From assembly GCA_030674185.1 (NCBI GenBank), contig JAPXFY010000026.1:39328392-39392391 (forward strand): a stretch of DNA of 64,000 bases, in the 5' to 3' direction. The stretch's first letter is position 1, and every line of letters starts with the position of its first letter. Below are positions 5,250-61,146 of this stretch, piece after piece. Below the pieces are notes generated by a model that saw only the letters and a program-made list of their open reading frames with translations, had not been told where the DNA came from and searched no databases. This stretch comes from Monoplex corrugatus. Lineage: Eukaryota > Mollusca > Gastropoda > Littorinimorpha > Ranellidae. The translations under genes were made by a program, and so were the position numbers.

Positions 5250-5401
5250 GTAAGTCACTTCAAACATTTGTTGTTCATTATACCGTGACATTTTGAAATG
5301 TCTTTAAAAAAGTAGGTTGGGAGACGGTAGTAAAGGAGGTTATTTTGTATTTACCACGTGTGTGTGTGTGTGTGTGTGTGTGTGGTGTGGTGTGTGTGTG
5401 T
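5250..5401. repeat. Intron start and (TG)n run abutting the LINE A 3' end
   Basis: Short intronic sequence, then a TG run with GGTGTGG interruptions from about 5358 to 5401. It touches the 3' terminus of LINE A, so in element orientation LINE A ends in (CA)n. Confidence 0.85.
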
Positions 5402-5668: not shown

Positions 5669-6724
5669 TTAAAGTAATGCATTAACAGGACTGTGAACTA
5701 ATGATTCTGAAATTTTAACAAGCAAAGATTGATCTGATGTTACTTTTTTGAAATGAGTTTCAGAATAGTTTTCTTGTGTAAACATTTTCGGTAGAAAAGA
5801 ACGTAGCATTTTGCAATAAAATAAACAGTGAAACAATGTGAACTGTTTGCCGCAAATACACTTGACATTTTTACAATATTTTGTTTTCAATGCGTTTAGC
5901 TGAATACGAAAACGAACAGCAACAATCGATCGCAAATGATACATGGATGAATACTGCATTTTTTTATATAAATTTTGAACGGAAAGTTTTATCATTTGTT
6001 GTGACACAAACTGTTCATTGAAATGTTCATGAAATCGAATCCATGAGGCTGATTCGAGCATGTTGCAAGCTTCTTTTACGGAAGTATGAACATGGAATTC
6101 TATAGAATTAACAGAATTCTCTGCACCTTGCTTAGCTGCTCTGTCAACTACTTCGTTGCCATGAAGACCAACGTGAGAAGGCACCCAGCATAAACTGATA
6201 TCTGTACCTTTTATCCTTAAACAATGTACAAGATGATTTGCCTCAGTAATTAAATCTGGTCTTGTGTCGGCATCAAAAGACCGTAAGGCATATAGTACAG
6301 ATTTTGAGTCAACAAAGAGAACTACTTTGAAAGACACGGGTTTAAGATTTACTAGATAATGCAATGCTTGTATAATAGCGACTAATTCCGCTGTGAATAT
6401 AGATATGTTTGCCCCAATGAAAAATGACTTTTTTATTTTAAATTTTGGAACATAAAATGCTGCTCCAGCACATTTATTTTCTAAGGCTGAACCATCGGTA
6501 AAAATATGAAGGTGGGTACGGTATTTTTCATCGACGTGTTGTCTTGCTGTGGATATCGAAATGTTGACGTTTTCATGTTTCTTAGCGTCTGTATAATCAA
6601 TATCAAAAGAGGCTTTTTGCATTTCCCATGTAGGGATAGGCGTTGTTGATGGTGTCTCAGCTATTTCATCCATATTTAGGTGACACTGTTTGACCAAGTC
6701 AGATATGTAAGTTGCAACAGTCAT
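5669..6724 (-). CDS. LINE A ORF2 C-terminal part: RNase H plus Cys/His tail
   Basis: This 351-residue open stretch carries a full RNase H domain: D77 in FTDGS, E113 in FTAELVA, D139 in LFVDSKS, H184 in PSHVGLHGNE and D194 in VVDRAA. All catalytic positions are kept. RNase H would remove the RNA strand during element replication. Near the end lies CICGKQFTLFHCLFYC, a C-x-C-x7-H-x4-C arrangement also present in LINE D (CICGEQFTLYHCLFYC) and, less perfectly, in LINE B, so it is probably a nucleic-acid or zinc-binding tail. The natural protein is continuous with the RT upstream; the Met at 6724 is not a real start. A frame change separates it from the RT. Confidence 0.85.
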   Translation of the reverse strand: MTVATYISDLVKQCHLNMDEIAETPSTTPIPTWEMQKASFDIDYTDAKKHENVNISISTARQHVDEKYRTHLHIFTDGSALENKCAGAAFYVPKFKIKKSFFIGANISIFTAELVAIIQALHYLVNLKPVSFKVVLFVDSKSVLYALRSFDADTRPDLITEANHLVHCLRIKGTDISLCWVPSHVGLHGNEVVDRAAKQGAENSVNSIEFHVHTSVKEACNMLESASWIRFHEHFNEQFVSQQMIKLSVQNLYKKMQYSSMYHLRSIVAVRFRIQLNALKTKYCKNVKCICGKQFTLFHCLFYCKMLRSFLPKMFTQENYSETHFKKVTSDQSLLVKISESLVHSPVNALL

Positions 6725-8371
6725 TTGTGATGAAATGCTGTTTGCTTGCTTTGGAAAGTCAACATCAGACCTAATTTTATTTCCTTACTCACAAAATTGT
6801 CCGTTTGTGAAGTACTTCTAACGACAAATTTTGTTGTCGCTAACTCACGATAGTTGTTCAGAGGCAGAATTCCAGCAACTTTGTACGTTTCCAGATTAGA
6901 AGCGTGAGCAGAGACACCTAGAGCAATTTTAATACTTTTGCAATCTAAGCTTTGTATCTTCTTTAATAAATATTTTGGTGCACTGAAGAACACTTCTTGT
7001 GCATAGGATAATTTAGATCGTACAAGTGCTGTTGATAGATGAATCAGTATGTTTGTATCCATTCCCCAAGGTAATCTGCTTATTATCTTAAGAAAATTTA
7101 AGGCTTTTCTTGCTTTTGTTGAAATATAATCAAAATGGACAGTCCAGTTTAATTTCGATGTTATAAAGACTCCCAGAAATTTTACAACCTGTTTGAAATG
7201 TAACACTTCACCAAGCAATCTAAAAGTAGGCAAGTTACTTAAAGTACCACCAGGATTAAATAGCATCATGTTAGTTTTTTCCGCTGACAACGACAGACCA
7301 TTTTCTAACATATAGTTTCCAAGATTATCAAGATCAGATTGATACAACTTCCTAATGTAATTCTGCGCTCTTTGTGGAGTTGTCTTTTTTAAAGTAATAT
7401 TCATCCAAATACATATATCATCAGCGCACTGTACCAAAACAACATGATTTGAGAGTGCTTTAGGAAGATCCTGTATAAGGATATTAAATAAAAGAGGTGC
7501 TATCACTGAACCTTGTGGAATTCCCATGTCAAGATTTCGTGAAGTAGAATAACACGAGTGGGAACTCGTGCCTGAATTGTTCTATTGGCTAAAAAAGACT
7601 TAATGTAATCATACATATTGCCCGATAAACCAATAGACTTCAGCTTGTACAATAAACGCGTATGCAAACTTGATCGTAAGCTTTTTTCACATCAAAAAAA
7701 GTAGCTAGAACACTTTTTCTGCGGGCAAACTGTTGCTTTATCTGAGTTGTAAGTTTAACGAGGTGCTGAACTGTGGATATCCCTTTTCTAAAACCTGCTT
7801 GATTTACTGGAGTAACATTATTTTTATCACAGTAATGTATAAGTCTGTTTAAGACCAATCTTTCCATTAGTTTGCTCGTATGGGATGTCAACGCAATAGG
7901 TCTGTAACTGTTTTTATTGTTCTTAGGCTTACCTGCTTTTAATATTGGTATAACAATAGACCTTTGCCATATCTGTGGTACAGTTCCACTAACCCAGCAT
8001 TTCTGAAAAATTTTGTGTAAGAAAATAATGCAGTTTTCCGGAAGATGTTTAATCATTTCATTTGAAACTGCATCGACACCTACTGAACTTCTTTTGTTGT
8101 GTAGAGACAAGATAGTGTTTTTTAGCTCTTGTAAGGTGATTGGAGCATTAAACCAGCGATCATTCTGAGGTATTGGGTCAGTGAAGATAGGGTTATTTGC
8201 TGCCATTTCCCTGTAGTGTTTGCAGGTAGGAGATAAACCGTCTACTTTACTATTTTCGGCAAAAAGTTCCACAAACGTTTCAGCTTTGTCCATATCGGAA
8301 GGAAATTTGTGACACGTGTCAATCATTATTGGACACCTAGGTAAGTTGACTCCATTTTTCATTTGATTCAT
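6721..8371 (-). pseudogene. LINE A reverse transcriptase (frameshifted)
   Basis: The N-terminal half (8371-7640) includes SYRPIALTSHTSKLMERLV, the conserved RPIALTS block, and FFDVKKAYDQV with the first catalytic Asp. A lost base at the following Trp (LINE D keeps YDQVWHKRLL) breaks the frame. The second half (7527-6721) starts in MGIPQGSVIAPLLFNILI and contains VLVQCADDICIW. The catalytic Asp pair is intact, but the usual Tyr of YADD is Cys. Thumb sequence follows to 6721. The domain would copy element RNA at the nicked target. Confidence 0.85.
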
Positions 8372-9290
8372 TTTTGTCCAGACTTTATGGAAATCCCCGA
8401 AATCTGAAATTTCTTTTTTGCAGTAGTACGCCCAATAATTTTTCTTTGATTCAATGATAATTCTATTACACTGGGTGTTAGCTTTTTCATCTCCATATGA
8501 TCTTCGGGTGTTCTGCTTTTGATGTAGATTTTGTATTTCTCTTTTTTATACTGAACTGCTTTCTCACATGCCTCTGTCCACCAAACATTACCCAAACGGT
8601 TATTGGACTTAAAGGTTTTGAGTTTCAGGATTGAGAGGTCTGCAGCAGCCAGAACTGACTCCTGGAATTTAGTAAACATAACGTCTACATTGTCACTTTC
8701 ATAATGTTTGTATTCGTGTTTAGCAAGAGCAGTCTGAAACCAGGACCAATCAGTGCGCGTGTAATTATATTTTGGTATAATATCAGTAGTGCTGTCTTTT
8801 ATCCTGATATTTTCATTAGTTATCGTTATGATGATAGGTGAGTGATCACTTCCCAAAGTATCTATATGAGTGTCCCAGGTACAGCATGGTACTAATTCTG
8901 GTGATATTAGTGACAGATCAATGGCTGTTGCCTGGTGTTTGGAAACATCAGGAATTCTAGTGACACTCCCATCATTCAAAAGGTAAAGCGCACTGTCTAC
9001 TATATTTTCTACCAACCGATTGCTTGTAACAGTACAACAGTCTTTTTCCCAAAACGGGGAGTGGGAATTAAAGTCTCCACCAATTAGCCATTTACCGTGT
9101 TGCAGATCCGGAATCGTACGCAGCCATTCTGTGTTGTGGTCATTTGGGCCTGTTGGCAGGTAGACTGACATAACGTTCAGGATAAATGAATTACTGAAGT
9201 GTACTGTGGCGGCACAAACGTGTAAGTCTTCAGCAGATGTTAATACTGGGGAAGTAAATATGTGATACTGCAACTCTAAGTATATATATA
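8368..9290 (-). pseudogene. LINE A endonuclease, C-terminal part
   Basis: Contains LNVMSVYLPTGPNDHN, KWLIGGDFNSHSPFWEKDC with the conserved GDFN, and LGSDHSPIIITI with the catalytic Asp-His, followed by a basic linker towards the RT. The Tc1 element ends the reading at 9290. Joining to 10904-11134 across the insertion restores a stretch the same length as the equivalent region of LINE B (46 residues from AIY to YLP) if the TA run is cut back to four units. Confidence 0.85.
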
Positions 9291-10903
9291 CTCCTAATCA
9301 TAATTTAAGGGCCACTTCTTCCTTCCTCTCTAATTTTAAGTTGAAATAATTGACAATGTTTAGAATTGATTCTATGTTTTATTTCATCATTTCCACACCT
9401 GTTTTGGAAAAAGAAATTAGCACAATGACCCATTAGTGAACAGCACATGCATTTAAAGGAACATCCCCCCCTTTTCAAAAAACAGAAAGTGTCAGATTTG
9501 GCCAATCTGTTTTCAATATCGCGTGTGTCCGCCCCGAGCCTGGATGCATGCTTCACAGCGCCGATGCATCGACCCCACAAGGGTACGGAGTGTGTCCTGA
9601 GGGATGGCCGCCCACTCGATCTGCAGGATGTCGACCAGCCTGGCCTGGGTGCCCGGTGGGGGGTGGTTGTCCCTGATGCGCCTCCCGAGCACATCCCAGA
9701 GGTGTTCAATTGGGTTCAGGTCAGGTGAGCACGCTGGCCAGGCCATACGGACGACTTCATGCTGCTCCAGGAAGTCGGTCACAAGGCGTGCTCGATGCGC
9801 AGGTGCATTGTCGTCCTGGAAGATGGCGCCTTGACCAAGGTCCACAAGCGCAGGCAGTGCCACGGCCGCCAGAACCTCGTCCCGGTACCGGACCCCGTTC
9901 AGGATGCCGTCAATGGGGAGCAGGGGGGTCCGGGTACCACGGCTCATGCCACCCCACACCATCACCGACCCGCCGCCGTACCGGTTATGCTCTTGGACAG
10001 TGGCGTCAGCGAACCTCTCCCCTTGACGTCGCCACACCCGAGCCCGGCCATCGTTAAAGGTCAGGGTGAACCTGGACTCATCCGAAAACAAGACCCGGGC
10101 CCACTGTTGCCTTGTCCAGGTCACGTGCTCCCTGGCCCAGGTCATGCGGCGCACTCTGTTGACCGGTGACAGCATGGGTCGGACGGCCGGTCTCCGTGAC
10201 CTCAAGTTTGCCTCATGTAGCCGTCTTCTCACCGTGCTGCAGCTGATGTTAGCACCTGTTGCGTCCCTCAGCTGACCCCTCAAGGTCACCGCAGTGGATG
10301 CCCTTTCCCTCAGGACGGAGAGGGCAAGGTAGCGGTCTTGCTGTCTTGTCGTTACTCTGGGTCGACCCGTGTGACGCCTTTCCTGGACTGCTCCAGTCTC
10401 ATTGAAGCGCTCCAGCAGTCTCTGGATTGTGGAATGCGACACTTCAAGTCGTCTAGCAACTTCCCGCTGCGCTAGGCCTTCATCAAGCAGAGCGAGGGCT
10501 CTCCCCCGCTGCTCATCCGTCATCCGTCGTCTTGCAAGCATGGTTAAAACGAACCAAGAACGGGTCCTTTTTATCCTCGTCTGCGGGCAACTTTGGCTGG
10601 AGTAGTGTTCAAAAAGGGCTTGCCTTGCACGTGCAAAGCGAATTTTGTCGCTACCTTGCCTGCGTCGTCAGAGAGACCCTGCTGAAGATTCGACAATTTC
10701 GTGTGGAAATTGTCTTCCTTGGGCCGCCCATTGCAAATCGGCAAATCCCCAAACACGTGCCAAAAGGAAACTGCAATGTTGTCTGAGCTCTTATCCATTC
10801 AGTTACGGCAACGAATTGGAGAAAAGAGTAAGAGAAAATAGGTTATTTCTCCTTTCAAAAATTGACTCAAAAACGTTCCTGGCCCTTCAATAATGACGTG
10901 TAG
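9291..10903 (-). mobile_element. Tc1/mariner-superfamily transposon, intact, inside LINE A
   Basis: The element is 1613 bp. Its ends form imperfect inverted repeats: CTCCTAATCATAATTTAAGG at the left and, reversed, CTACACGTCATTATTGAAGG at the right, both continuing GGCCA. TA repeats flank both sides, consistent with the TA target rule. It carries one full transposase gene and visibly higher GC than the LINE around it. Removal makes the LINE endonuclease frame continuous, which fixes the boundaries independently of the terminal repeats. Confidence 0.88.
9513..10541 (-). CDS. Tc1-like transposase, DD34E, full length
   Basis: A 342-residue uninterrupted frame with the usual Tc1 length. Residues about 8-55 and 62-115 form two helix-turn-helix DNA-binding segments separated by the GRPR motif (59-62). 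The catalytic triad is visible: D154 in LFSDESRF, D244 in FQDDNAPAH and E279 in SPDLNPIEHLWD, with exactly 34 residues between D244 and E279. It would cut and paste its own element at TA sites in the nucleus. No stop or frameshift is seen, unlike every LINE ORF around it. The GC-rich codon use suggests a recent arrival or a different source genome, possibly by horizontal transfer, which is common for this family. Confidence 0.95.
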   Translation of the reverse strand: MLARRRMTDEQRGRALALLDEGLAQREVARRLEVSHSTIQRLLERFNETGAVQERRHTGRPRVTTRQQDRYLALSVLRERASTAVTLRGQLRDATGANISCSTVRRRLHEANLRSRRPAVRPMLSPVNRVRRMTWAREHVTWTRQQWARVLFSDESRFTLTFNDGRARVWRRQGERFADATVQEHNRYGGGSVMVWGGMSRGTRTPLLPIDGILNGVRYRDEVLAAVALPALVDLGQGAIFQDDNAPAHRARLVTDFLEQHEVVRMAWPACSPDLNPIEHLWDVLGRRIRDNHPPPGTQARLVDILQIEWAAIPQDTLRTLVGSMHRRCEACIQARGGHTRY

Positions 10904-11134
10904 TATATATATCGCAGTGGCTACCTTCTTCCCGGAATTCCCAAATTCATATATTGGTGGATAATAATAATTTTGAAAATTGGGAAGTTTGGTTGGAATA
11001 ACATTAAGCGACTGCAAAATCAATATTTCACACTGATTTGATGCGAGAAAATGTTCGAGGTATGCGGAATTGGTGGAAATAGATCTACAATTCCACTGTA
11101 AAATTTTTATTTGTGATTGTTGGCGCATTTTCAT
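10904..11134 (-). pseudogene. LINE A endonuclease, N-terminal part
   Basis: Reads MKMRQQSQIKILQWNCRSIS, then an open stretch to KKVATAIYI where the Tc1 element begins. QWNCRS is the start of a LINE apurinic endonuclease (catalytic Asn). The matching part of LINE B reads INIVQWNTRSIGKN. The open frame continues a short way into the transposon, but that part is not LINE sequence. Confidence 0.8.
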
Positions 11135-11479
11135 CGATGGCTAATCTCTTATTTTAAATTAAGACTTTGGTTTTCTGTGTACGAGAAAAATGGCCAGAAA
11201 GAAAACATTAATTACTTAGACTACTATTGGGGAAAAAAAACTATGGGAAGAAGTCCTTCTAATAGAGATAAGAGTTAGATTCAGAACAGAAACAAATAAC
11301 AAATAAATAAAACAATGGTATACACGTCTTCAAATGAACAGACAATATAGTCTGACTGAGTCCTGATAGTCTGACTAAATCCTAGCGTTTATATACTTTC
11401 AACAAGAAAATTGTCAGAGATGACAGGGAAAAAGTCCTGTGACACGAAACGTTGATAACTGTAGATCTATTAAAACATT
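11135..11479. other. LINE A spacer between ORF1 and ORF2
   Basis: AT-rich spacer of about 345 bases with no coding signal. A similar spacer lies between ORF1 and ORF2 of LINE B (31859-32038), so it is part of the element. Confidence 0.55.
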
Positions 11480-12905
11480 TCATATGGCAGCCACCACGGT
11501 TCACAGTTGTCAAAATGGATGAACCGTCCTCGGGGGAATCTAGAGGCGTGTAGCCGTGCAGATCGTGATCCTGTTGTCCTCCTTGGGGTCTCCCAAAACA
11601 GATCTCGAATGTGTCTTCCGAGGTTCCCCGCCATAACACTGCTTCCTCTGGTAGTGGGGTGAATATTGTCGTGTAGAAACTGCTGGTTAGTATGAAGGTT
11701 TTCATGGGAGACAAAAGATACATTTTTTTATGTCAACAAGCTCAGCAGATAAGAAGCGTTGAACAAATTCCGCTGAACCTCCATACGTGCATGTCGTACA
11801 GGGGCGACCTTGCTGATAACTATCTTTGAGTTTGGGTAAGTTTGTGTTACATCATACATGTATGATGCAGGAAGCGAGATGTTGAGTTTTTGCTGCAAGA
11901 TCTTTGTTATTCAAGTCGTGGACACCACAATAGAAAACAATACAGTCTGCAGGGTTGTTAAGTTTGGATAGTGTCTTGTCTAAAGAACTTTTGATATCAT
12001 GAATGTTATTCACAGGACACGAGTCTCCTTCAAAACCATAAGATCGTCCCAGTCTCTTGGAGTTGACACCTTTCAGTACCGAATCATGTACAGTGGAAAC
12101 CATTTATAACAGGACCGGTTATAACAGGAATCCGGATATAACAGGGCTTTTTTCAATCCCCATTTTTTCTTCCTCTTTGTCTCTATTAAAACTTATCGGC
12201 AATAACAGGGAGACAAGAGGGCTCGATCGGTTATAGCAGGGATGCCGAGACGGGCTCTGCAGCAGAAAGGCCTAGGCCTAGACTCAGCACGCCACGCAGT
12301 AGGCCTAGATCTAGATCTAGGCTAGCCTTGGTATACTGTGTACTGTACACTGAAAGAACGCTTCGCAATGCGAGCGTGATGCGCACGCAAGCGTGTAGGC
12401 CTGAGGCCACTGAGTCAGTGACTGACTGCGCCATCATTCAGTTTGTAAGCTTACACCAGACCAGATCTAGGCCTAGATCTACTGTTTATCTTTCCATGAT
12501 TTACAAAAGTCAAGAGTTAGTTGATCAGTCCTTATTTCCCTTGATATCTGATATAACAGGGATCTGATATAACAGGGATTTTGATTTGGTCCCATCATCC
12601 CTGTTATATCAGGTTTCCACTGTACATGTATAGTCACAACATAAGGAAGGTCGTGGTTCCTCTTACGTTGTTCTGATGTCTTTTTAGAGTTTGACGCGGC
12701 ATGTTTGAGCTGTGAGGTGACGTCTTTAACTTTTTTGATGTCATGAAGTCGTTCTTCCCCATCTTTGATTTTCTTTTCGGTCACTATTTTCACTTGTTTT
12801 GTGTTATTGCGGCTAGCTTTAGGAGCGTCTGATTTGTGTGCCTGTTGGTCGTCCTGCCTGTGTGTTTGTTTTTGTTTTAGAACCTCTGCGTACGTGGGGT
12901 TTCTT
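11480..12905 (-). pseudogene. LINE A ORF1: SGNH-hydrolase-like protein, broken
   Basis: Outside the MITE the fragments read, in order: a polar N-terminal region with PTYAEVLKQKQ, a Lys/Glu-rich probable coiled segment, then PYVVTIH..HDSVLKGV (Ser block), IVFYCGVHDLNNKD (block III, usually GxND), KIVISKVAPVRH, and DNIHPTTRGSSVMAGNLGRH (Asp-x-x-His block). The order and spacing match the SGNH/GDSL esterase fold and match LINE B ORF1 block by block. Frame breaks near 11730-11870 and the MITE at 12091 inactivate it. In CR1-type LINEs esterase-like ORF1 proteins are known; one on an RNase H LINE is unusual to my knowledge. The function of the esterase is unknown. Confidence 0.75.
12091..12622. mobile_element. 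pogo/Tigger-like MITE in LINE A ORF1
   Basis: 532 bp with terminal inverted repeats (CAGTGGAAACC at both ends, continuing towards ATAACAGG) and a TA on each side. The type is judged from the CAGTGGAAACC start and TA duplication, which resemble pogo/Tigger-like mariner relatives. The interior repeats ATAACAGGGAT-like words near both ends and has no transposase. Removing it joins VVTIH to VHDSVLKG of LINE A ORF1 in frame. Confidence 0.85.
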
Positions 12906-12909
12906 TCAT

Positions 12910-12910
12910 T

Positions 12911-12974
<64 letters not shown>

Positions 12975-13200
12975 TGTCTGTGTGTGTTTGATGTGTATGT
13001 GTGTGTGTGTGTATGCGTGTGTGTATGCGTGTGTGTATGTGTGTTGTGTATGTGTGTGTGTGTATGTGTGTGTGTGCGTGCATACCTGTGTGTTTGTGTA
13101 TGTGTGACTGTATCTGTGTGTATGTATGTGTGTATGTGTGTGTATGTGTGTGAGTGTTATGTGCGTGCATGCATGTGTGTGTGTGTATGTGCAGAGCGCG
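12910..13200. repeat. (TG)n and variant microsatellite
   Basis: Pure TG at 12914-12972, then TGTATG/TGCG variants to about 13200. It marks the lost 5' side of LINE A. Open frames across it are artefacts. Confidence 0.95.
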
Positions 13201-17476: not shown

Positions 17477-17584
17477 TTGTGTGTGTGTGTGTGGTGTGTG
17501 TGTGTGTGTACATGCGTGTTGCGTGCGTGCGTGCTTGCGTGCGTGCGTGTGTGTGTGTTGTGTGTGTGTGTGTGTGTGTGTGTG
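17477..17584. repeat. (TG)n run abutting LINE B 3' end
   Basis: TG with TGCG interruptions; ends at TGTGGTCTTTGATTTAATG, the 3' terminus of LINE B on the minus strand. Confidence 0.9.
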
Positions 17585-17942
17585 GTCTTTGATTTAATGT
17601 CTATCCACTAAAGTGATTTTAGACCCAAAAAAACAACAACAACAAACAAACAAAAAGAAGAAAAAAGGATACATGAGGAGAAAAGAGGAAACTTGGAAAC
17701 GGTTAATCTTCAGGATAAAGAAATGAACCAGAAAATCAATATGCCGAAGACGAGAAAGAAAAATTCACAAATGACGATTGAAACAGCAAAATTGGCTAAC
17801 CATAACATTGAACATGAGAAATAACGAAACGTTAAAGATAATTCGCTATAGGACTTTTTGACAGGCTAACAAAAAATTCATATGTTAAGGATGATGAGGC
17901 AAATATGTCAGAAACTGTCTTCGTTGATAGCATAGGTATATG

Positions 17943-18607
17943 TCATTTTACCCAAACGCATGAAAGAATATGACTATGTGTTATCTTCTTTCCACACAGA
18001 CACACTACATTCCTAGTGTATTTTGTTTTGAATGCATCAAGTTTCCACCTATACATAAGGGATTGTATACTTCTGCTGGCAGGAAACTGCTTCGGTGTTT
18101 TGCTAATTTCAAAGTTCATGTAACATTTTTCATACTTTTTCTGTTTATCTTGAAACTGCTTCCATACGTAGGTGTCCACTAAGGTATAACACTCATGCAA
18201 TGAGAGGGAAAGTTGTATGTGATTTGAATCTGGTGAGCCCTATCAATCATATCATTGTAATGAAAAGAACTATGAGATGGTATCCAGCAGAAAGTAATAT
18301 CAGTGCCTCTTAAGGATAAACTATTAATCAAGTGAGTAATTTCCAATGTCATTTCAGATCTTGTTTGTAATTTTGATAATTCAAGAGCTTGAAGTGCAGA
18401 TTTTGAATCAATGCAAAAAAATATCTGGGGAATCGTCCTAGAAAGATTTATCATATAATTCAAAGCCATTAAGACTGCAAAGAGTTCTGCAGTAAAGACA
18501 GATTTATTAAGTCCTATATAGAAAGATTTCTCAATTTTGAGAGCAGGTATTAAAAACGCTGAGCCTGCTTGTCTTTCAATTATTGATCCATCAGTGTAAA
18601 CTTTCAA
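17943..18607 (-). pseudogene. LINE B RNase H and tail (frameshifted)
   Basis: The 18179-18607 part gives MKVYTDGSIIERQAGSAFLI, with later blocks VFTAELFAVLMALNY, FCIDSKSALQAL and WIPSHSSFHYNDMIDRAH. The Asp-Glu-Asp-His-Asp set of RNase H is retained although the SHxGxxGN loop is altered. The downstream frame 17943-18200 carries VVCLCGKKITHSHILSC, matching the Cys/His tail of LINE A. A frame change lies between them. Confidence 0.8.
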
Positions 18608-18627
18608 GTGATCGGAATAAAAGTCTT

Positions 18628-20299
18628 CTATATGACTTTTAACTTGACTTGCCAGTAAGTTGATTTTTTTTTTTTTTTAAAGTCAGTGTGGTGTATGTCA
18701 AATCGTGCTCTTTGAAGTTCCCAACTGGGTACTGGTGAAAACGAAGGTCTTAAAGTTACTGGATCTGTTTCTAGATCAATTCCAGAGCCTTTCACAACAT
18801 CAGCTGTAAATGTTGCAAGTGTGACCTGCGAGGATATTGATTTAGCTCTTTTCGAAAAGTCGGTTTCTGATCGTACTTTTGTCTCTGTTTCGATGCTGTT
18901 TTCTATGGTGATGTTTCTGAACAGAAATTTAGAAGAAGCGACTTTCCTTTGTTCATCAAGCGGCAATAATTTGATTGCATTGTATGTGCGAAGGCAAGAG
19001 GCATGCATTGGAAGACCCAGTGCAAGTTTGAAACCTTTACAATCTATGCTCTCCAGTTTTGTTAGTAAGTGTTTTGGTGCACTGAAGAAGATTTCTTGGG
19101 CATAGGTTAATTTAGATCTAATAAGCGATTTACAGAGATGAACAAGTGTTGATGTATCTTGTCCCCATATCTGTTTGCGAACTATTTTTAAGAAATTTAG
19201 TGTTTTGAGCTTTTGTTAATAAGTATTCAATATGCTGATTCCAAGATAATTTCTCTGCAAGGAAAATTCCTAAGAATTTAATCGACTCGTTATAATGAAG
19301 AAGAGTATCTCCCAGTTTGAATGTGGGAACATTTGCTGGGTTAGCTCCACTGTTAAACAAAACTATCTTTGTTTTTTCCACGGATAGATGCAGTCCATTT
19401 TCTACCATATATCGTGCTATTTTATCAAGCTCTAATTGATACCATTTACGTGTATAATTAAGACAGCGCAAAGGAATTTTCTTTTCATATTTACCTGCAT
19501 CCACATGCATAAATCGTCAGCATATTGAGCTAAAATTACATCTTTAGAAATTTTACTGGGTAAGTCATGCAATAATATCATGAAGAGAAGGGGAGCAATA
19601 ACGGATCCCTGAGGGATCCCTGAAGAAATCGTTTTGTGGAATACACATTTTCGATCCTCGTTTGAATTACACGGTCTTCTAAGAAGCATTTGACATGATC
19701 AAAAATGTGACCTGTTAGGCCAATACTTTTCAATTTGATTAATAATCGGGAGTGCCATACTTGGCCGTATGCTTTAGTTATATAAAAAAAATGTAGCTAA
19801 AACACATTGGCGTCTGGCAAATTGTTGTTTGATATTAGTGGTTAGCTTTGTTAGGAGTTCTACTGGTGACCTGCCTTTTCTAAATCCTGCCTGATTCACT
19901 GGTAATATGTTATTCTTTTCACAGTAGTGCATCAATCTCTTCAAAATTATTTTCTCCATTAGTTTACATACGTGCGATGTTATTGCAATTGGCCTATAGT
20001 TTTTCAAGTCAGTATTACATTTACCTGCTTTTAGTACAGGAACCACTATTGATTGTTTCCAATAGTCAGGCAGTTTGCCGCTGTTCCAGAATTTTTTAAA
20101 CATACTATGTAGCAAGTTTAAAACATTTTCTGGTAAATTTTTCAACATCTCATTGGAAATTGCATCAAATCCTACTGATGTCTTTTTATTTGGAATTGAT
20201 TTAATGGCATCTACTAATTCTTGGAGCGTGATTGGTGTATTTACGTAGTGCGTATTATCTGGGGCAGGATCCTTGTATGCGTCGGTCTTTTCTTCCTGT
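18628..20299 (-). pseudogene. LINE B reverse transcriptase (several frame breaks)
   Basis: Pieces in order from high to low coordinates: NYRPIAITSHVCKLMEKIIL and GFRKGRSPVELLTKLTTN (19774-20148), SGIPQGSVIAPLLFMILLHD and LAQYADDLCMW (19432-19689), thumb with ENGLHLSVEKTKIVLF (19130-19510), then a connection to RNase H (18628-19008). Here the active-site box is a normal YADD, unlike LINE A (CADD) and LINE D (HADD). The FFDVKKAYD motif is destroyed by a shift near 19780. Confidence 0.85.
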
Positions 20300-20309
20300 A
20301 CCCTATAAT
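20300..20309. repeat. Target-site duplication of RTE-B, left copy
   Basis: ACCCTATAAT, identical to 30341-30350. Both copies lie in LINE B sequence. Confidence 0.9.
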
Positions 20310-21479: not shown

Positions 21480-24359
21480 TTAAGGATGGTGATAGCAGAC
21501 GGGACAAAAGAAAAGCGGTAAAGATTTCTTTTCCCAAGCTGGTACACGGAGTCTACGCCCCGAACGCAGAAACTGAAAGCAGTTCCGCAGTGGGTGCTTG
21601 TCATCAATCAAGATACTTTGGGCCTTCTTCTTGACTGTCTGACGGTGGATATCTGGCAAGGATTTCTGTTTTTTACCTATCACTTTACTAGCTGAATTTA
21701 CAATGCCATTTAATCTGGTCTTCTCTTTCACACGCAGATTCCCATACCAGGTCACGATATTAAAGGCTAAAATGCTTTCCACTAAAGATCTGTAAACAAG
21801 TTGTAAAACAGCAGAATCAACATCAAAACTCTTCAGTTTTCGAATGAGGTACATCCTCTGGTTAGCCTTTTTACAAATAAAATCAACGTGTTCACTGAAC
21901 TTCAAATCCCTGTCTAAAACTGTGCCCAAATATTTAAACGAGTCAACTTTTTCAACGTTTTCAGAATCAATTTGGACGGGGCGTAGCAGGGCGGGATCGC
22001 TCGCACGGTCTGTCCCAAAACAAATTTCTTTAGTCTTTTTGATATTCAGTTTTAGAAAACTTTCATCGAACCAGAGGGCAAGATTACTGATAAAATCAAA
22101 ATACTGAGAAAGAGAATGTTCATCTTTCATTCTAGCAATAAGGGCCATATCATCTGCAAACTTCACAAGTGCAAGAATGTTAGTGTTGCACGTCATTTCG
22201 TTGGTATAAATTGAAAATAAAACCGGGGAGAGAACGCAGCCCTGCGGCGCACCTGTATTTAAAACGAGTTCCTTAGACATAATGCCATCAATGCTGACTC
22301 TCTGTGGCCGACTGCATAGAAAAGAACGGATCCAGAGCACAAGGCCTGGGCTGACCTCGATGTCAAGAAGACGCTTGATCAGCAAGTGGGGTTGAAGCGT
22401 ATTAAACGCGGAACTAAAATCCATCATCAAGACCCGTACAAAGGTACCAGCTTTGTCAAGATGAGAGAACGCTAGATCAAGTAAGGTCAAGGTCGCATCT
22501 TCGACACCCCGCTTTGCCTTATAGGCAAACTGCAGGGGGTCCATGCGATCGGCCACAGAGGCCGTCAGCTGGTCACACACTATCCTTTCCATGCATTTAC
22601 AGATCACAGATGTCAAGGCCACCGGCCTGTAATCATTCATGTCTTTTGCATTTGGCTTTTTGGCAACAGGAATGATGGTAGATGTACGCCAGATTCTAGG
22701 AACAAAATGAAAGTTCATAAACAACTGAAACAAACGACTAAAAACAACACAAAGCTGACTAGAACATTCTTTTAAGACTTTTCCCCCCACCCCATCTGGT
22801 CCACTAGCTTTCCTTGGATTCAAACGAGAGAAAACTTTCTTTACCATGGCTTCTGAAACAGTGACATTATTGGGGGTAGTAAATAGAGGCTGACACACAC
22901 GTTCAATTTCACGAGAAAAGTCCTTGTTGTCAAAGCGTGCATAGAACGCATTTAGGTCATTGGAGAAAGAAACCGGGTCATCACACTTCACGCCTTGCTT
23001 TTTTACCTTCTTCCCCATCATCGTATTCAACCCATCCCATGCCGCCCTCCCATTCCCCTGTGTCAACTTTTCCTCCACTTTGTCCTTGTATTCCCTTTTA
23101 GCAACTTTACTTTTCCTTCTAAACTCCCTGTTTAACTCTTTTTGTCTTTCTTTATCCCCCTGTAAATAAGCCTTCTTTTTCTCTAATAAAATCTGCTTCA
23201 TTTCCTTATTAACCCAAGGCTTAGTGTTTGAATACACCTTTACTTCTTTTTTTGTGACAACATTCTCTTCACAAAAACGAACATACGATGTGACAGAGTC
23301 AGAAACAATGTCAAGATCATCCTCATCTTCGAAAAACACATTCCAGTCTGTGGTTTCAAAGCAACCCCTCAAAGTCTCTGCTGTCTCATAATCCCATTGA
23401 CTAACAGAACGTGTCTTTAACCCCTCCCTCTTTATTAACTGTTTATATTTGGGAAGCAGGTGAATGACATTGTGGTCCGATTTACCAAGGGGTGGCGAGT
23501 AGCGGTCTGTGTAGGCATCGTGAATGTTTACGAAACACTTGTCAAGGATGTTACCCATGCGTGTCGGATTTGTTACACACTGCTGGAGTTGAGGTAAGTG
23601 TTTGGACACATCGCACGTGTTAAAGTCACCTAACAACAACACGGGCTGGTCGGCTGACCTGCTGAGCGCACGATTATAGCACTCGGCGATGCTCTCTGCC
23701 GCTGCGTCGTCGTTCGGGCCTGGCACGTACGCTAAAATAACTGAAACCTGTGTGAATTCACGGGGCAGGTAGTGCGGGCGAAACGACACAGACAAAATCT
23801 CGCAGTCATGTGTACTGACAGTTTCCCTCACAGTTATGTTGGTAGCCCAGTCTTTGTTTACAAACATGATCAGTCCTCCCCCTATCTTTTTCTCTGTTTT
23901 CACTGTATCTCTGTCCAGTCTGACTGCTGTAAAACCATCAAGATCAGCGTTCTTCTCCCCTGACAGCCAAGTCTCGGTAACACAGATGATGTTACTGCGG
24001 CGATAGTCGCCGTCGTGTTGCACGAGCGCTGCCAACTCGTCCATCTTGTTGTTTACGGACCGGGCGTTAGTGAATGTCACAGTAGGCATAGGAAGCCTAG
24101 CCCCTCTACGACGTAGCCGATTCCTGACCCCTCCCCTGGACCCTCTCTTCTTCTGTCTGCCTTTCATTTCCCCATAGTCAATGTCTATGCTGGGAGCGAT
24201 CTTGGAAAGGGGGTGGTGCCTGAGGCTTAACATAAACTCACGAGTGTTAGCAGTGTTGGCAGTATCGCTATAAAAATGTCCGCCATTTTGGTTGTGACCG
24301 GTCTGCTGTGTACTCACAAGGACTCCTCGCATCGACGAAACAAGCAAACATAACGCCAC
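21480..24359 (-). CDS. LINE C ORF: endonuclease-reverse transcriptase, 959 residues open
   Basis: Residues about 94-300 are an apurinic-type endonuclease: N98 in TFTNARS, E129 in VTETWL, D245/N247 in LLGDFN, S294-D295-H296 in GKSDHN. Residues about 510-760 are the RT: DYRPVALTS, D647 in MMDFSSAFN, GAPQGCVLSP (703-712) and FADD (734-737). It nicks DNA and primes reverse transcription of its own RNA. The second copy at 25697-27691 shows the natural start 12 codons earlier (MCTMELRKCFVTVVALCLLV); one extra C near 24361 shifts it here. At the C-terminus a frame slip near 21525 hides the usual Rex1/CR1 ending: the neighbouring frame reads NLYRFSFVPSAITILN. Apart from these two slips the frame is open, so the copy is young. 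Confidence 0.92.
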   Translation of the reverse strand: MALCLLVSSMRGVLVSTQQTGHNQNGGHFYSDTANTANTREFMLSLRHHPLSKIAPSIDIDYGEMKGRQKKRGSRGGVRNRLRRRGARLPMPTVTFTNARSVNNKMDELAALVQHDGDYRRSNIICVTETWLSGEKNADLDGFTAVRLDRDTVKTEKKIGGGLIMFVNKDWATNITVRETVSTHDCEILSVSFRPHYLPREFTQVSVILAYVPGPNDDAAAESIAECYNRALSRSADQPVLLLGDFNTCDVSKHLPQLQQCVTNPTRMGNILDKCFVNIHDAYTDRYSPPLGKSDHNVIHLLPKYKQLIKREGLKTRSVSQWDYETAETLRGCFETTDWNVFFEDEDDLDIVSDSVTSYVRFCEENVVTKKEVKVYSNTKPWVNKEMKQILLEKKKAYLQGDKERQKELNREFRRKSKVAKREYKDKVEEKLTQGNGRAAWDGLNTMMGKKVKKQGVKCDDPVSFSNDLNAFYARFDNKDFSREIERVCQPLFTTPNNVTVSEAMVKKVFSRLNPRKASGPDGVGGKVLKECSSQLCVVFSRLFQLFMNFHFVPRIWRTSTIIPVAKKPNAKDMNDYRPVALTSVICKCMERIVCDQLTASVADRMDPLQFAYKAKRGVEDATLTLLDLAFSHLDKAGTFVRVLMMDFSSAFNTLQPHLLIKRLLDIEVSPGLVLWIRSFLCSRPQRVSIDGIMSKELVLNTGAPQGCVLSPVLFSIYTNEMTCNTNILALVKFADDMALIARMKDEHSLSQYFDFISNLALWFDESFLKLNIKKTKEICFGTDRASDPALLRPVQIDSENVEKVDSFKYLGTVLDRDLKFSEHVDFICKKANQRMYLIRKLKSFDVDSAVLQLVYRSLVESILAFNIVTWYGNLRVKEKTRLNGIVNSASKVIGKKQKSLPDIHRQTVKKKAQSILIDDKHPLRNCFQFLRSGRRLRVPAWEKKSLPLFFCPVCYHHP

Positions 24360-24511
24360 CCACAGTCACAAAACACTTTCTCAGTTCCATCGTGCACATG
24401 CTTGCAGACTTTCAGGCACTGTCCTCACGCAGAACATAACAAAAAAAAATGTCATCCACCGGAGCTCTTTCTGTGCTGCTAGGGTCGCTTACAGAGTCGC
24501 GCCCCCTATAT

Positions 24512-27800: not shown

Positions 27801-27803
27801 TAT

Positions 27804-30340: not shown

Positions 30341-30350
30341 ACCCTATAAT
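30341..30350. repeat. Target-site duplication of RTE-B, right copy
   Basis: ACCCTATAAT, identical to 20300-20309. Confidence 0.9.
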
Positions 30351-31858
30351 TTATACTAGAGGCAGGAAGTCCTTCTACTCGACAGACCTCTGCAAACATG
30401 TCTGCAAAAGCTTCTGCTTTCTCCTGTGAGCTAGGTAAAGGGTTGTTTTCTAGCTTTACTGGAATTGATGGCAACTTGATCCCATTTTTCATTGTTTTCA
30501 GTTTTTCACAAATCTTTTGCCTATCTTTATGGTCACTTACTTCATATGTACAAAACGATGTCCAGTATTGTTCTTTAGCTTGTTCTATGACTCTGTTACA
30601 GTTTATATTGACACTTTTCATTGCCGTATGATTTTCAGATGACCTATTCACTATATATTGTTTGTATTTTTCTTTCTTTTCGTTGACTGCCTTTTCACAA
30701 TCTTTATTCCACCAGACGTTTTCATGATGTTTTCCTGTTTTTGACGCTTTAAGTTCTGGAATTGAAATTTTTGCAGCCCTTAAGAGTGACTTACAGAGAC
30801 ATGCGTACATATCGTTTAAGGTCATTGTTTCAGATAGATCTGTTCTTGTATTTCGTAGGAAAGCTTTAAAACTAGGCCAATCTGCGTATTTATAGTTAAA
30901 CTTGGGTAAACTATCTTATGGTATTGCATCAAACTCAGTGATATGGTTAAGGGTAAGAAGTATGGGGATGTGATCTGATCCCAACAAATCATCCTGTTTG
31001 CCATGTGGCATTTGGTGCTAGCGATGGTGAGATTAAGGTAAGGTCGATAGCTGTGGGTCTGTGAATTGGTATATCAGGGACACGGGTAACGTGTCCGTTG
31101 TTAAGTATAAATTGGAATCTATAATATTTTCAATCAACCTGTTGCTAGTTATGTTTTTACAATTCTTGTCCCAAAATGGGGCATGTGCATTAAAATCACC
31201 ACCAACTATCCACTTGTCACGTTGGTCATGAAAATGTTTCAACCACGAATCTATCCAATGTTGCTGCAAGTATATCTCCCACCCTCTCTGTCTTCAGCCA
31301 ATCTGCAAGTCCATCCAATATTTTCTCCCTGGGTCTACCTGGTATTCTTTTTCCCTTCGGCTTTCTTGTGTGACCAGATGCTCTAATTCCCCTTTCCTCA
31401 TAACATGTTCTAATTCCCATTCCCCCATATGCAATCCAATAAAAGACAGTTTCATTCTTGGGACTGAAATTTCTTCAATTCACAGAATCGGGACCTCTTG
31501 GTAGATAAGTAGAGGCCAAATTCAGAACTAATGATGATGAACATGTTATAATAATTGCACACGAAGAAATAGATAAGGACGATTTTGGTACTGGCGATGA
31601 TCTTTCACAGTAGTTCAGTCCTTCACGAACATATATAGCTGTTTGTATTCGGCCACCGTCATTGATAGAGTCATATACTGGCGGATAATAAAACCCCGAT
31701 ATTTTAGGTATAATGGTATTGGTGGTATTCAGCGATTGTAGAAGCAAGCCTTGGATGTTTCTAGAAGATAGATAGTTACTCAAATAGGAGATATTTTTAC
31801 CAATGGAACGTGTGTTCCACTGAACAATGTTGATGTCACTGACTACACACTTTTTCAT
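30351..31858 (-). pseudogene. LINE B endonuclease and linker (interrupted)
   Basis: N-terminal part (31858-31475): INIVQWNTRSIGKNISYLSN through STYLPRGPDSVN. After the RTE insertion: WLKHFHDQRDKWIVGGDFNA and FWDKNCKNITSNRLIENIID (31269-31033), then linker with NVWWNKDCEKAVNEKKEKYK (30825-30351). GDFN is kept; the Asp-His loop lies in a frame-broken stretch near 30960. Lines up with LINE A throughout. Confidence 0.85.
31243..31468 (-). mobile_element. RTE C-terminal fragment, rearranged subfamily, copy 1
   Basis: On the minus strand it reads like 34480-34700: an unusual start (AAACTGTCTTTTATTGGATT), HMGEWELV, then RKGELEHLV-type coding and the RTE tail block up to TTGGATAGATTCGTGG, where it is cut without a GAT tail. 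It interrupts the LINE B endonuclease. Confidence 0.85.
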
Positions 31859-32038: not shown

Positions 32039-33248
32039 CTAAAATGACCAGGGAGGGAAGAAAAACTGACGGTGAAAGCCGGGTCTTGATTGATGGTGTT
32101 GATGGGTTGATCTCCTCGGTTTTTCCCAGAAAAGCTGATGGATGAGCCTCCCTATATTTCTGGCCAGAACACTCGCCCCTCTGGGGGTGGGATGTAGGTC
32201 GTCCTGGCTGACTTGGGTGTACCGGCTTGTTTGCAGATTATCGTGGCTGATGTAGTTGACATTTGCTGCGTTGAGGAGTCTCTCTTTGGTCAGGGCATTA
32301 AGGAGCTCCCTTTTCACGTTTAGGTGTTTGTTTCGCACAGGAGCGACCTGACTTAACACTACCTTGGCTTTTGGAAATTGGGTGTTAATTGATTTTACAC
32401 AAAAGTCTAGATTGGTAGTCATACATTTGGCTCCTTTGTTTTTAGATCTGTTATACCGACGTGTAAAAGAACGCAGTCAGGTTCAGGTGTCAGCTCTTCT
32501 TTAGATTTTTCAATAGCTCGCTTACAGTCCTCGATGGTACGTATTTTTCTCGTCGCCACCTGGAAACCATAGGACGATTCTAATCTCTGTCCATCCACTT
32601 TATTCAAGACAGAGTCATGAATAATGAGGACACGTGGGATAACACTGGACTGAGATCTGGTATCTGTAGATACAGTAGTTTTGACGTCACGTTTTGGTTT
32701 GGTAAAGACGTCATGTTTTTCGCTTGATGTCAGTTCTCTGTCCAAGATCAACGTTTTCCTGAACTTCTGCTTTGGGCAGTTGAGCTGCGCATTCTGCGTA
32801 TGTTAAAAATTTGTCCATTGGTGATGTGGTGGAAAAGTCACAGTGGACTGCGGAGTCAGTCTGGCACTCTGTGGTGGTGGTAGTTATTGTGCACTTTTTG
32901 ACTTCGCGCAGCTTTTGTAACATTTTGTAGTTTTCTCGCTGGTTTTCTTTCTGATTGAAGCATGTCTGTGAGTCGGCCGATTTGCATGGACATTTGATGT
33001 ATTGTGTTTTTGAGATTGTTTATTTCGCTTACCACCTCTTGACAGCCACATGATGGTACTGACTGTGGTTGTGGAGGTGGAGGCTGACTCGTGGACGACA
33101 AACCTGTCTGGTGGGAGCTATCACTTTTGGAAAGATTGTCATCATCCTGGATGTTGCAAGTGGATGGCGTCTCGGTTTTGGTGGTGGCTATCTTGGTGGT
33201 GGTCGTCGTGGCTTTCTCTTTGGTGAGACAACGTTTCGAGCGTGTCAT
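32039..33248 (-). pseudogene. LINE B ORF1: coiled segment plus SGNH-hydrolase-like domain
   Basis: From MTRSKRCLTKEKATTTTTKI (start 33248) comes a Thr/Lys and Pro-rich N-terminus, then CQEVVSEINNLKNTIHQMSM, a likely coiled coil, then KFLTYAECAAQL. The second frame (32751-32419) has RVLIIHDSVLNKVDGQRLE (Ser block) and DCVLLHVGITDLKTK (block III). The third (32422-32039) has KAKVVLSQVAPVRNKHLN and DDLHPTPRGASVLARNIGRL (Asp-x-x-His block) followed by IHQLFWEKPRR. Two single frame changes separate the pieces. The Ser, Asp and His of an SGNH esterase are all present. The role in LINE particles is unknown; RNA binding by the basic N-terminus is inferred. Confidence 0.8.
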
Positions 33249-33283
33249 TTTCTGCCCAGTTGATTCCTCTCTTAAAATGTTCA

Positions 33284-33310: not shown

Positions 33311-33323
33311 AATGGGGTGTGTG

Positions 33324-33361
<38 letters not shown>

Positions 33362-33640
33362 TGTGTGTGTGTGTAGTAATGTAATGTAATGTAATGTATG
33401 TATGTATGTATGTGTGTATGTATGTATGTATGCTTGCATGTATGTATGTATGTATGCATGTATGTGTGTAAGCGCGTGTGCACGCACGCACACGTGTATG
33501 TATGTCTGTATGTGTATATGTATGTATGTCTATCTGTATGTACGCAGGCATGCACGTATTATAAACGTATGTACGTACGTATGTATGTATGTATGTACGT
33601 GTATGTGTAGATATGCATGTACATACGTACGTAACTACGT
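33311..33640. repeat. (TG)n, (TATG)n and TACG variant repeats
   Basis: TG run at about 33316-33375, GTAAT repeats, then TATG/TACG units to 33640. Frames through it are artefacts. Confidence 0.95.
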
Positions 33641-58865: not shown

Positions 58866-58897
58866 TTTCAGTTTCAATTTCTCAAGATGACGTCTCC
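58866..58897 (+). mobile_element. Family Y head, split off by LINE D
   Basis: AGTTTCAGTTTCAATTTCTC and AAGATGACGTCTCCG match the start of copy 1 (13675). The rest of this copy resumes at 61434 after LINE D. Confidence 0.7.
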
Positions 58898-59318
58898 GAA
58901 AAAGTGTTTTAGCTACTTTCTTTGATGTAAAAAAAGCTTACGATCAAGTTTGGCATAAACGTTTATTGTTCAAGCTAAAATCTGTTGGTTTATCTGGCAA
59001 TATGTACAATTACATTAAATCTTTTTTTAGCTAATAGAACAATACAGGCTAGAGTGGGAGCTAGTTATTCTACTTCACGGCGCCTCGACATGGGGATTCC
59101 ACAAGGTTCAGTGATAGCACCTATTTTATTTAATATCCTTATATAGGATCTTCCTAAAGCTTTTTCAAATCGTGTTGTTTTAGTACAGCATGCTGATGAT
59201 ATATGCACTTGGATGAATATCACTTTAAAAAAGACAACTCCACAGAGAACACGGAATTACATCAGGAAATTGTATCAAATTGATCTTGATAACCTTGGAA
59301 ACTATATGTTAGAAAATG
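58898..59318 (+). pseudogene. LINE D reverse transcriptase, palm part
   Basis: VLATFFDVKKAYDQVWHKRL and GLSGNMYNYIKSFF, a one-base gain in a T run, then LDMGIPQGSVIAPILFNILI, a TAG stop, and VLVQHADDICTW. The YADD Tyr is His here. Read to MLENGLSL, where the foldback element enters. Confidence 0.85.
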
Positions 59319-59328
59319 GTCTATCGTT

Positions 59329-59508
59329 AACCAGAAGAACAAGAAAATCAATGCAAGCGCATCTCCAACAAGACAACACAAAACAAAACAAGCGCAAATT
59401 TTCGGCGCTTGTTTTGTTTTGTGTTGTCTTGTTGGAGATGCGCTTGCATTGATTTTCTTGTTCTTCTGGTTTGTGTTTGCTTGGGCGCAGGCAGTCACTC
59501 TTGTTTTG
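59329..59508. mobile_element. Perfect hairpin element (family Z) inside LINE D
   Basis: Arms 59329-59395 and 59405-59471 are exact reverse complements (67 bases) around the 9-base loop AAATTTTCG. A 37-base tail (59472-59508) matches the outer end of the foldback element at 36806 in reverse. GGTCTATCGTT flanks it at 59318-59328 and 59509-59519, an 11-bp duplication of LINE D sequence (coding GLSL). Confidence 0.92.
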
Positions 59509-61146
59509 GGTCTATCGTTGTCGGCAGAAAAAACTAACATGATGCTGTTTGATCCTGGTGGTAACTCAAATAACTTGCCTACTTTCAAATTGCTTGGTGA
59601 AGTGTTAAATTACAAACAGGTCGTAAAATTTCTGGGAGTTTACATCACTTCGAAATTAAACTGGAATGTTCATTTTGATTATACTTTAACAAAAGCACGA
59701 AAAACCTTAAATTTTCTAAAGATAATAAGCAAATTACCCTGGGGAATGGATACAAATATACTGATTCATCTGTCAACAGCGCTGGTCAGGTCTAAATTAT
59801 CCTACGCGCAAGAAGTTTTTTTCAATGCACCTAAATATTTACTAAAAAAGATTCAGAACTTGGACTGCAAAAGTCTTAAAATTGCACTAGGTGTACCAAC
59901 TCATGCTTCTACTCTGGAAACGTACAAAGTTGCTGGAATTCTACCTCTAAACAACCATCGTGAGCTAGCTACATCAAAGTTTGCAATTAGAACTACTTCA
60001 CAAGCGAATAATTTTGTGAGCAAAGAAATTAAAATCAGGTCTGATATTGACTTTCCAAAACGAGCAGAAAACATTTCATCACAAATTACAACCGCAACTT
60101 ACATATCTGACCTGATCAAACAATCCAGCATAACTATGGATGAAATAGCCGAAAAACCAATGTTAACGCCTATCCCTACATGGGAAATGCTAAAGGCCAC
60201 GTTTGATCTCGATTATGCAGACGTTAAAAAAGATGATAATGTCAACATTACGCTATCCACAGCTTGTGAACACATCGATGAAAAGTACCGTACCCACCTC
60301 CACATTTTTACTGATGGGTCAGTCTTAGCAAATCAGAGCGCTGGAGCAGCGTTTTATGTTCCAAAATTTAACATTAAAAAGTCTTTTTTCATTGGGGCAA
60401 ATGTATCTATATACACAGCAGAATTGGTCGCTGTTGTTCAAACGTTGCATTATTTAATAAGCCTTCGGCCTGTGCCTTTCAAAGTAGTTCTGTTTGTTGA
60501 TTCAAAATCTGTATTATATGCCTTACAGTCTTTTGATACAGACACAAGACCTGATTTAATAATTGAGGCAAATCATCTAATACACTGTTTAAAGATAAAT
60601 GGCTCGGAAATCAGTTTATGCTGGGTGCCTTCTCACGTTGGTCTTCACGGCAACAACGTAGTTGACAGAGCAGCTAAATCCGGTGCACTCCGTTTTGAAA
60701 ATTCCATAGAATTACATGTTAACACCTCGGTAAAAGAAGCTTACAACTCGCTAGAATTAGCATCATGGATTCGATTTCATGAACATTTAAATGAAAAATT
60801 TGTGTCTCAAAAAAGAATCAAACTTTCAGTTCAAAATATCTGTAAAAAATTGCAGTATTCTTCGATATATCATTTGAGATTAATTGTTACCACATATTTT
60901 CGTATTCAACTGAACGCTTTGAAAACAAAATATTGTAAAAACGTTTTATGTATTTGCGGTGAACAATTCACATTGTATCACTGTTTGTTTTACTGCAGAA
61001 AGCTTCGTTATTTTTTACCAAAGATGTTTACACAAACACAAGGAAACTATCTTGAAAAGCATTTTAAAGAAGTGATATCAGATCAAGTTCTGTTAGTTAA
61101 AATTTCAGAATCATTGGTTCACAGTCCTGTTAATGCGTTACTTTAA
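59509..61146 (+). CDS. LINE D thumb, RNase H and Cys/His tail, open
   Basis: After the hairpin the frame is open to TAA at 61144-61146. It gives GLSLSAEKTNMMLFDPGGNS (RT thumb), KLSYAQEVFFNAPKYLLKKI, then RNase H with HLHIFTDGSVLANQ, IYTAELVAVV, VLFVDSKSVLYAL and CWVPSHVGLHGNNVVDRAAK (all catalytic residues kept) and CICGEQFTLYHCLFYC. The open frame extends upstream into the hairpin, but those residues are not LINE-derived. The best-preserved RNase H of the three copies. Confidence 0.88.
   Translation, partial: GLSLSAEKTNMMLFDPGGNSNNLPTFKLLGEVLNYKQVVKFLGVYITSKLNWNVHFDYTLTKARKTLNFLKIISKLPWGMDTNILIHLSTALVRSKLSYAQEVFFNAPKYLLKKIQNLDCKSLKIALGVPTHASTLETYKVAGILPLNNHRELATSKFAIRTTSQANNFVSKEIKIRSDIDFPKRAENISSQITTATYISDLIKQSSITMDEIAEKPMLTPIPTWEMLKATFDLDYADVKKDDNVNITLSTACEHIDEKYRTHLHIFTDGSVLANQSAGAAFYVPKFNIKKSFFIGANVSIYTAELVAVVQTLHYLISLRPVPFKVVLFVDSKSVLYALQSFDTDTRPDLIIEANHLIHCLKINGSEISLCWVPSHVGLHGNNVVDRAAKSGALRFENSIELHVNTSVKEAYNSLELASWIRFHEHLNEKFVSQKRIKLSVQNICKKLQYSSIYHLRLIVTTYFRIQLNALKTKYCKNVLCICGEQFTLYHCLFYCRKLRYFLPKMFTQTQGNYLEKHFKEVISDQVLLVKISESLVHSPVNALL

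Follow-up and report, generated by a model that had tools for sequence, protein, structure and literature searches.

An SGNH-like ORF1 ahead of an RNase H-bearing ORF2 in two LINE families of a 64-kb window

Two broken elements in the window analyzed here (the whole 64-kb stretch of DNA, which has the makeup of animal DNA and a GC content of 41%, and is dense with nested transposons and microsatellites) are very probably dead copies from two families of one APE-type LINE lineage with an unusual pairing of ORFs. We refer to them as LINE A and LINE B. Their ORF2 includes an RNase H domain, and their ORF1 is best described as a long N-terminal helix, probably a coiled coil, followed by a polar linker and a C-terminal SGNH domain of the CR1/L2/RTEX esterase type. 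We regard as established the domains, their order, the fold as predicted by modeling, and the fact that database relatives conserve the catalytic Ser, Asn, Asp and His. Weighing on the other side, both window copies are broken, neither has the Asn, and LINE A has Tyr at a position where a transposon-specific His is expected. The pairing suggests that esterase ORF1s have spread further among jumping genes than was thought.

LINE A extends from ~12912 to 5402 and LINE B from ~33316 to 17585, both on the minus strand (Table 1). LINE A is broken by a ~1.6 kb insert within ORF2 that holds an open ORF of 342 aa (9513-10541), a Tc1/mariner transposase by look. LINE B is broken twice, by a ~230 bp stretch and by ~10 kb of nested inserts with two near-identical partial copies of a CR1-like LINE. 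The latter lie in direct 2.4 kb copies (22409-24806 and 25702-28099) that are 99.9% identical and represent either a recent duplication or an assembly artefact. Adjoining the CR1-like copies are plus-strand LINE fragments (27775-29898) that look RTE-like. A third copy, LINE C, is a 5´-truncated relative of LINE A, with DNA identities of 87.1% and 83.5% over two long stretches, and no ORF1 was found for it. Elsewhere in the window, 91-849 on the minus strand weakly matches the RT of another LINE (25-31% identity), and two tandem arrays 5 kb apart (39224-39818 and 44625-45326) have a nearly identical 65-bp unit.

Table 1. Features of LINE A, LINE B and LINE C, in window coordinates
Feature	Position	Strand	Basis
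LINE A (AC)n array, 5´ side	12913..13191	-	
LINE A ORF1, linker remnant ahead of SGNH domain; N-terminal part missing	12638..12910	-	Open frame, TYAEV block resembling P0129 TYADV; weak, E 6.2
Probable insert dividing LINE A ORF1	12104..12637		Inferred; short tandem repeats near both ends
LINE A ORF1, SGNH first part (HDSVL, GVHDL)	11855..12103	-	Profile E 2.3e-15; tblastn of relatives
LINE A ORF1, SGNH middle part	11731..11910	-	Profile E 1.9e-7
LINE A ORF1, SGNH last part (DNIHPTTRG)	11473..11727	-	Profile E 5.4e-19
LINE A ORF2, beginning of the APE endonuclease	10901..11134	-	P0003 residues 1-76
LINE A ORF2, rest of APE, then RT and RNase H, frameshifted	5672..9306	-	P0003 residues 68-1277 in order; Pfam RVT_1 7.1e-13, RNase_H 8e-14
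LINE A 3´ end, stem-loop	5402..5447	-	93% to LINE C 61392-61437; similar to LINE B 3´ end too
LINE A (AC)n array, 3´ side	5358..5401	-	
LINE B (AC)n array, 5´ side	33317..33374	-	
LINE B ORF1, polar N-terminus	32856..33248	-	Open frame starting MTRSK, as in some intact relatives
LINE B ORF1, SGNH first half (HDSVL, LHVGITDL)	32422..32802	-	Profile E 2e-21
LINE B ORF1, SGNH second half (DDLHPTPRG)	32042..32476	-	Profile E 1.1e-35; Pfam PF00657 0.0012, PF13472 0.0095, both below cut-off
LINE B ORF2, first part of APE	31478..31837	-	P0011 residues 5-124
LINE B ORF2, rest of APE and linker	30343..31245	-	P0011 residues 127-429
LINE B ORF2, RT and RNase H, resuming past ~10 kb of nested inserts	17835..20307	-	P0011 residues 428-1259; RNase_H 1.7e-8 in 18179-18676
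LINE B 3´ end, stem-loop, passing into (AC)n	17542..17624	-	89 columns, partly (AC)n, 85% to the LINE A 3´ end
LINE B (AC)n array, 3´ side	17478..17584	-	
LINE C, 5´-truncated, end of RT and RNase H	58897..61146	+	P0003 residues 596-1277

The SGNH-like ORF1

A sequence-only reading of this DNA had proposed that the ORF1s of LINE A and LINE B both carry HDSVL, GxxDL and Dx(I/L)HPTxRG blocks in SGNH order, and we located all three in each element on the minus strand. In LINE A, a match to HDSVL lies at 12077-12088, the 11855-12103 frame holds GVHDL, and DNIHPTTRG is at ~11644-11670; the corresponding sites in LINE B are 32608-32619 for HDSVL, the 32422-32802 frame for GITDL and ~32177-32203 for DDLHPTPRG. 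The span first singled out, 11480-12905, does correspond to LINE A ORF1, though this ORF is spread over several frames with one in-frame stop, has lost its N-terminal part, and probably is divided by an insert at ~12104-12637. The coiled or polar N-terminus ascribed to both elements was borne out in part: it is polar in LINE B, the long helix is predicted in relatives only, and in LINE A this part is absent.

The joined LINE B ORF1 as query retrieved two proteins (from 4591 candidates), and an alignment query consisting of both window ORF1s and these first two relatives retrieved 11, including those two (7996 scored candidates). For the test profile we used 10 database relatives without any window sequence; P0123, a near copy of P0001, was omitted both here and from the count of invariant residues. 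Searched against 1913 window ORFs, the profile matched five pieces of the two ORF1s with E-values from 1.1e-35 to 1.9e-7 (Table 1), and the next ORF had an E of 0.72. The reversed window gave zero matches up to E 1; among three windows shuffled by base in 500-base blocks, one was empty and two had a single match each (0.53 and 0.49). These controls rule out a chance motif match for the ORF1 pieces. A check against SGNH/GDSL families in Pfam, which had been suggested along with the proposal, gave scores below the cut-offs for the window pieces on their own. The second half of the LINE B domain matched PF00657 and PF13472 below the cut-off, but the other pieces matched neither: with E up to 1, there was no match for 32419-32802, 32856-33284, 11852-12103 or 11470-11727 taken alone, and 11728-11910 alone gave a single weak match to an unrelated family.

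ORF1 nevertheless appears to be SGNH-like as proposed, the SGNH (flavodoxin-like) fold being present in the structure predictions of two intact relatives. A long helix is predicted ahead of the domain, at residues 70-123 in P0001 and 59-95 in P0129. Model confidence was low in the loop that carries the Asp and His of block V (mean pLDDT 48 for P0129 residues 331-340). The alignment behind the first model had one misaligned row (window:32856-33284), and that behind the second did not.

The catalytic Ser, Asp and His had been described as kept in both elements, and the alignment agrees: all 13 rows with a letter at the block I Ser have S, and all 13 with letters at the block V Asp-x-x-His have D and H. 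Together with the Asn, these residues are invariant in all 10 relatives counted, which are 23-47% identical to P0129. The block III Asn is N in 11/11 relatives, a count that leaves out the fourteenth row (32039-32476), whose N there is out of frame; it is replaced in the window copies, by T in LINE B and by H in LINE A. Block II looks to be lacking, since no Gly lies within four columns after strand 2 in the 13 rows, at a site judged from the model and not superposed. The equivalents of two residues reported as transposon-specific, H191 and S228 of the zebrafish element ZfL2-1, were assigned from sequence alignments; of 13 rows, 12 have H at the first site, the exception being Y in LINE A, and all have S at the second.

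ORF1 might keep the SGNH fold without being an enzyme and act as a lipid- or RNA-binding module, as has been proposed for inactive SGNH proteins such as Oskar. The block II Gly that was not seen and the Asn missing from both window copies would fit such a role, as would the report that the ZfL2-1 esterase is active at a low level and binds phospholipids (PMC3905857, in the portion we draw on). We consider this somewhat unlikely, however, with the four catalytic residues invariant in relatives so diverged.

An independent capture of a host esterase, separate from the CR1/L2/RTEX elements, strikes us as still harder to credit. There is precedent in the GDSL ORFs of the bdelloid elements Vesta and Athena, which cluster apart from LINE esterases and are read as separate captures in the available part of the source (PMC5408684), and the identity of the ORF1s to the ZfL2-1 structure 4c1b is low. 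Yet 4c1b is the best match among PDB sequences, its E-value beating that of the top cellular esterase by over six orders of magnitude, and both transposon-specific residues are kept. The 4c1b chain was absent among the best 50 structure matches, which says nothing on its fold. We infer that ORF1 was passed between LINE lineages and was not invented anew.

By analogy with ZfL2-1, ORF1p would oligomerize via its N-terminal helix and coat the element RNA, binding through charged stretches. The SGNH domain may bind or hydrolyze membrane lipids or acyl groups, and RNPs might thereby assemble on, or travel with, membranes. ORF2p would nick DNA and, through target-primed reverse transcription, copy the RNA from the 3´ stem-loop, with the template removed by the RNase H of ORF2p.

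ORF2 and the placement of the lineage

The RNase H reported for ORF2 was recovered as Pfam PF00075 in LINE A and LINE B (Table 1) as well as in LINE C (3.9e-12), and Pfam did not find it in the window's CR1-like LINE. The intact protein P0003 maps along LINE A in order (residues 1-76, 68-342, 341-613, 603-648, 646-910 and 909-1277), and the intact P0011 does so along LINE B (residues 5-124, 127-429, 428-974, 703-1124 and 1129-1259), setting aside weak scattered matches and those to the CR1-like LINE. With LINE A ORF2 as query, 586 relatives were retrieved from 6055 candidates, and Exo_endo_phos_2, RVT_1 and RNase_H are all present in 30 of the 30 relatives aligned. The order APE, RT, RNase H is that of I group LINEs (I, Nimb, Ingi, Loa, R1 and others).

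The RTs of LINE A and LINE B are 58% identical to each other and far from those of the window's CR1-like and RTE-like LINEs; identity to the CR1-like LINE, so labeled by look and domains only, is 23% for LINE A and 21% for LINE B. Our RT tree, with the RTE-like LINE as root, has 123 rows; those covering no more than 150 residues of the region had been removed, and LINE C was left out. LINE A and LINE B share a 35-tip group (support 0.907). A set of 121 tips (support 0.893) includes both of them along with every database row, but not the CR1-like LINE. The tree is no independent test of clade, because its proteins were found by similarity to LINE A. PMC4640811 names the I group, along with plant L1, Proto1 and Dualen, as LINEs that have RNase H. 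An I-group element is thus the likeliest reading of the lineage, the RT comparison covering database relatives and the window's own CR1-like and RTE-like LINEs. Against a CR1 or L2 LINE (Jockey superfamily) stand the presence of RNase H and the low RT identity to the CR1-like LINE. As for clades within the I superfamily, those given for molluscs in the cited part of PMC10294476 are Nimb, Ingi and one unknown octopus clade. No CCHC family is among the Pfam matches for ORF1, which is an SGNH protein, unlike that of the Nimb element Limi; Nimb would still be compatible, because the clade is defined by RT and CCHC is typical, not defining.

Linkage of the two ORFs and the element ends

In both LINE A and LINE B, the SGNH ORF1 is directly upstream of ORF2 on the same strand, separated from the ORF2 start by 335 bp in LINE A and ~180 bp in LINE B. 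The SGNH domains of the two elements are 41% identical (69/170), so the arrangement does not go back to one recent event and, given the RT identity as well, the two families are old. LINE B can be read through from a 5´ part starting CATTCCTACGCCAAGATGGCGGC to ORF1, ORF2, and a 3´ end with a stem-loop like that of LINE A and LINE C. Since two clearly different families keep the same order and strand, ORF1 is part of the same element as ORF2, as the sequence-only reading had supposed. With the place and strand of ORF1 shared by diverged families, and LINE B continuous from its 5´ part to its 3´ stem-loop, a chance neighborhood is very unlikely. The wealth of nested inserts in the window and the esterase ORF1s of CR1, L2 and RTEX LINEs might invite the idea that an SGNH ORF from another such element just happens to precede the RNase H ORF2, but this is very improbable and an ORF1 of a CR1-type neighbor is rejected, with the arrangement found in two diverged families and the gaps leaving no room for another RT.

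Scans of viral-contig and genome-contig collections for records with both ORFs gave no relative. The sole hint of linkage outside the window comes from the ORF1 relative P0126 and the ORF2 relative P0115, which are on records of equal size (4979, ena), a coincidence that chance could produce; in the RT tree, P0115 shares a part of 76 tips with LINE A and LINE B. For the other ORF1 relatives, inspection by eye found no record of equal size among the best 120 of the 586 ORF2 relatives.

The 3´ stem-loop is present in all three copies (GTCT, TCACT, AGTGA/AGTGG, AGAC/AGAT) and is followed by TTAAATCAA. LINE A and LINE B are each bordered by (AC)n arrays at both ends, with AC always on the sense strand of the element; the 3´ end of LINE C has no (AC)n. 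Of the sequence outside the two elements, (AC)n accounts for 3.7%, or 5.7% with longer-period AC-rich arrays. With these fractions halved for orientation, two random insertions would both land in such arrays with a chance of 3e-4 to 8e-4; for two hits out of three, counting LINE C as a miss, the chance is 1e-3 to 2.4e-3. Both values were calculated post hoc. The 3´ arrays could have grown from the tail of the element, the 5´ arrays less easily. LINE B is apparently full-length, with a 5´ UTR of ~70 bp. Targeting of AC-type repeats is known from R1-clade elements, for instance Mino and Waldo. We regard (AC)n targeting by the LINE A/LINE B lineage as a lead; if the association holds, this would be one more microsatellite-targeting LINE. 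Tentatively, and with more doubt than confidence, we can imagine a widespread I-group-like RNase H LINE lineage that took over a transposon SGNH esterase as its ORF1 and prefers (AC)n sites, with the shared 3´ stem-loop then TTAAATCAAAGA (or nearly so) as the RT recognition signal.

Comparison with known esterase ORFs and RNase H LINEs

Esterase ORF1s had been noted for CR1-like LINEs, and in the parts of the sources cited they are indeed on record for CR1, L2 and RTEX, as well as for Penelope-like elements (PMC5408684, PMC3905857), with GDSL ORF3s in bdelloid LTR elements (PMC5408684). Within the Jockey superfamily, the consulted portion of PMC4120745 gives esterase ORF1s for only two vertebrate subgroups. 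In the literature covered, partly through excerpts, we found no report of an SGNH/esterase ORF1 with an RNase H-bearing APE-type LINE; a database-only annotation of the pairing, as in Repbase, may exist. An esterase ORF1 in two diverged families of RNase H LINEs widens the range of these proteins into a branch whose described member considered here, Limi, has a CCHC gag-like ORF1. The pairing supports the view that distant LINEs have exchanged ORF1 as a whole module. It also provides a second context, where intact relatives exist, for asking how a lipid-binding esterase serves retrotransposition.

Several known elements, as far as the excerpts of the cited papers describe them, share one half of this pairing. 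The bdelloid rotifer elements Vesta and Athena have a GDSL esterase ORF, but are LTR and Penelope-like elements, respectively (PMC5408684). Amphibian Ngaro-like YR retrotransposons combine an SGNH ORF with RT/RNase H in one element, but are tyrosine-recombinase elements with the SGNH ORF after the recombinase (PMC9210276). Limi, a Nimb element of locust, resembles LINE A and LINE B in having an ORF2 with APE, RT and RNase H, whereas its ORF1 has three CCHC zinc knuckles (PMC3391268). Zebrafish Nimb-2_DR and the snail nimbus are I-group LINEs as well, likened by APE, RT and RNase H in a comparison that concerns ORF2. RTEX LINEs have an esterase-type ORF1 outside CR1/L2 (PMC3905857, PMC5408684), but are placed in the RTE clade; LINE A and LINE B differ in RT and in having RNase H. 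In zebrafish ZfL2-1 (CR1/L2 group; PDB 4c1b), ORF2 is drawn with EN and RT only, and the LINE A/LINE B family further differs in a block I of H/S-D-S, and no block II Gly was seen in it. ZfL2-1 and this family nonetheless have in common an ORF1 with coiled coil (a probable one in this family), linker and SGNH domain ahead of an EN-RT ORF2, the LHVGxND and DGxHPxxxG blocks, and the equivalents of H191 and S228.
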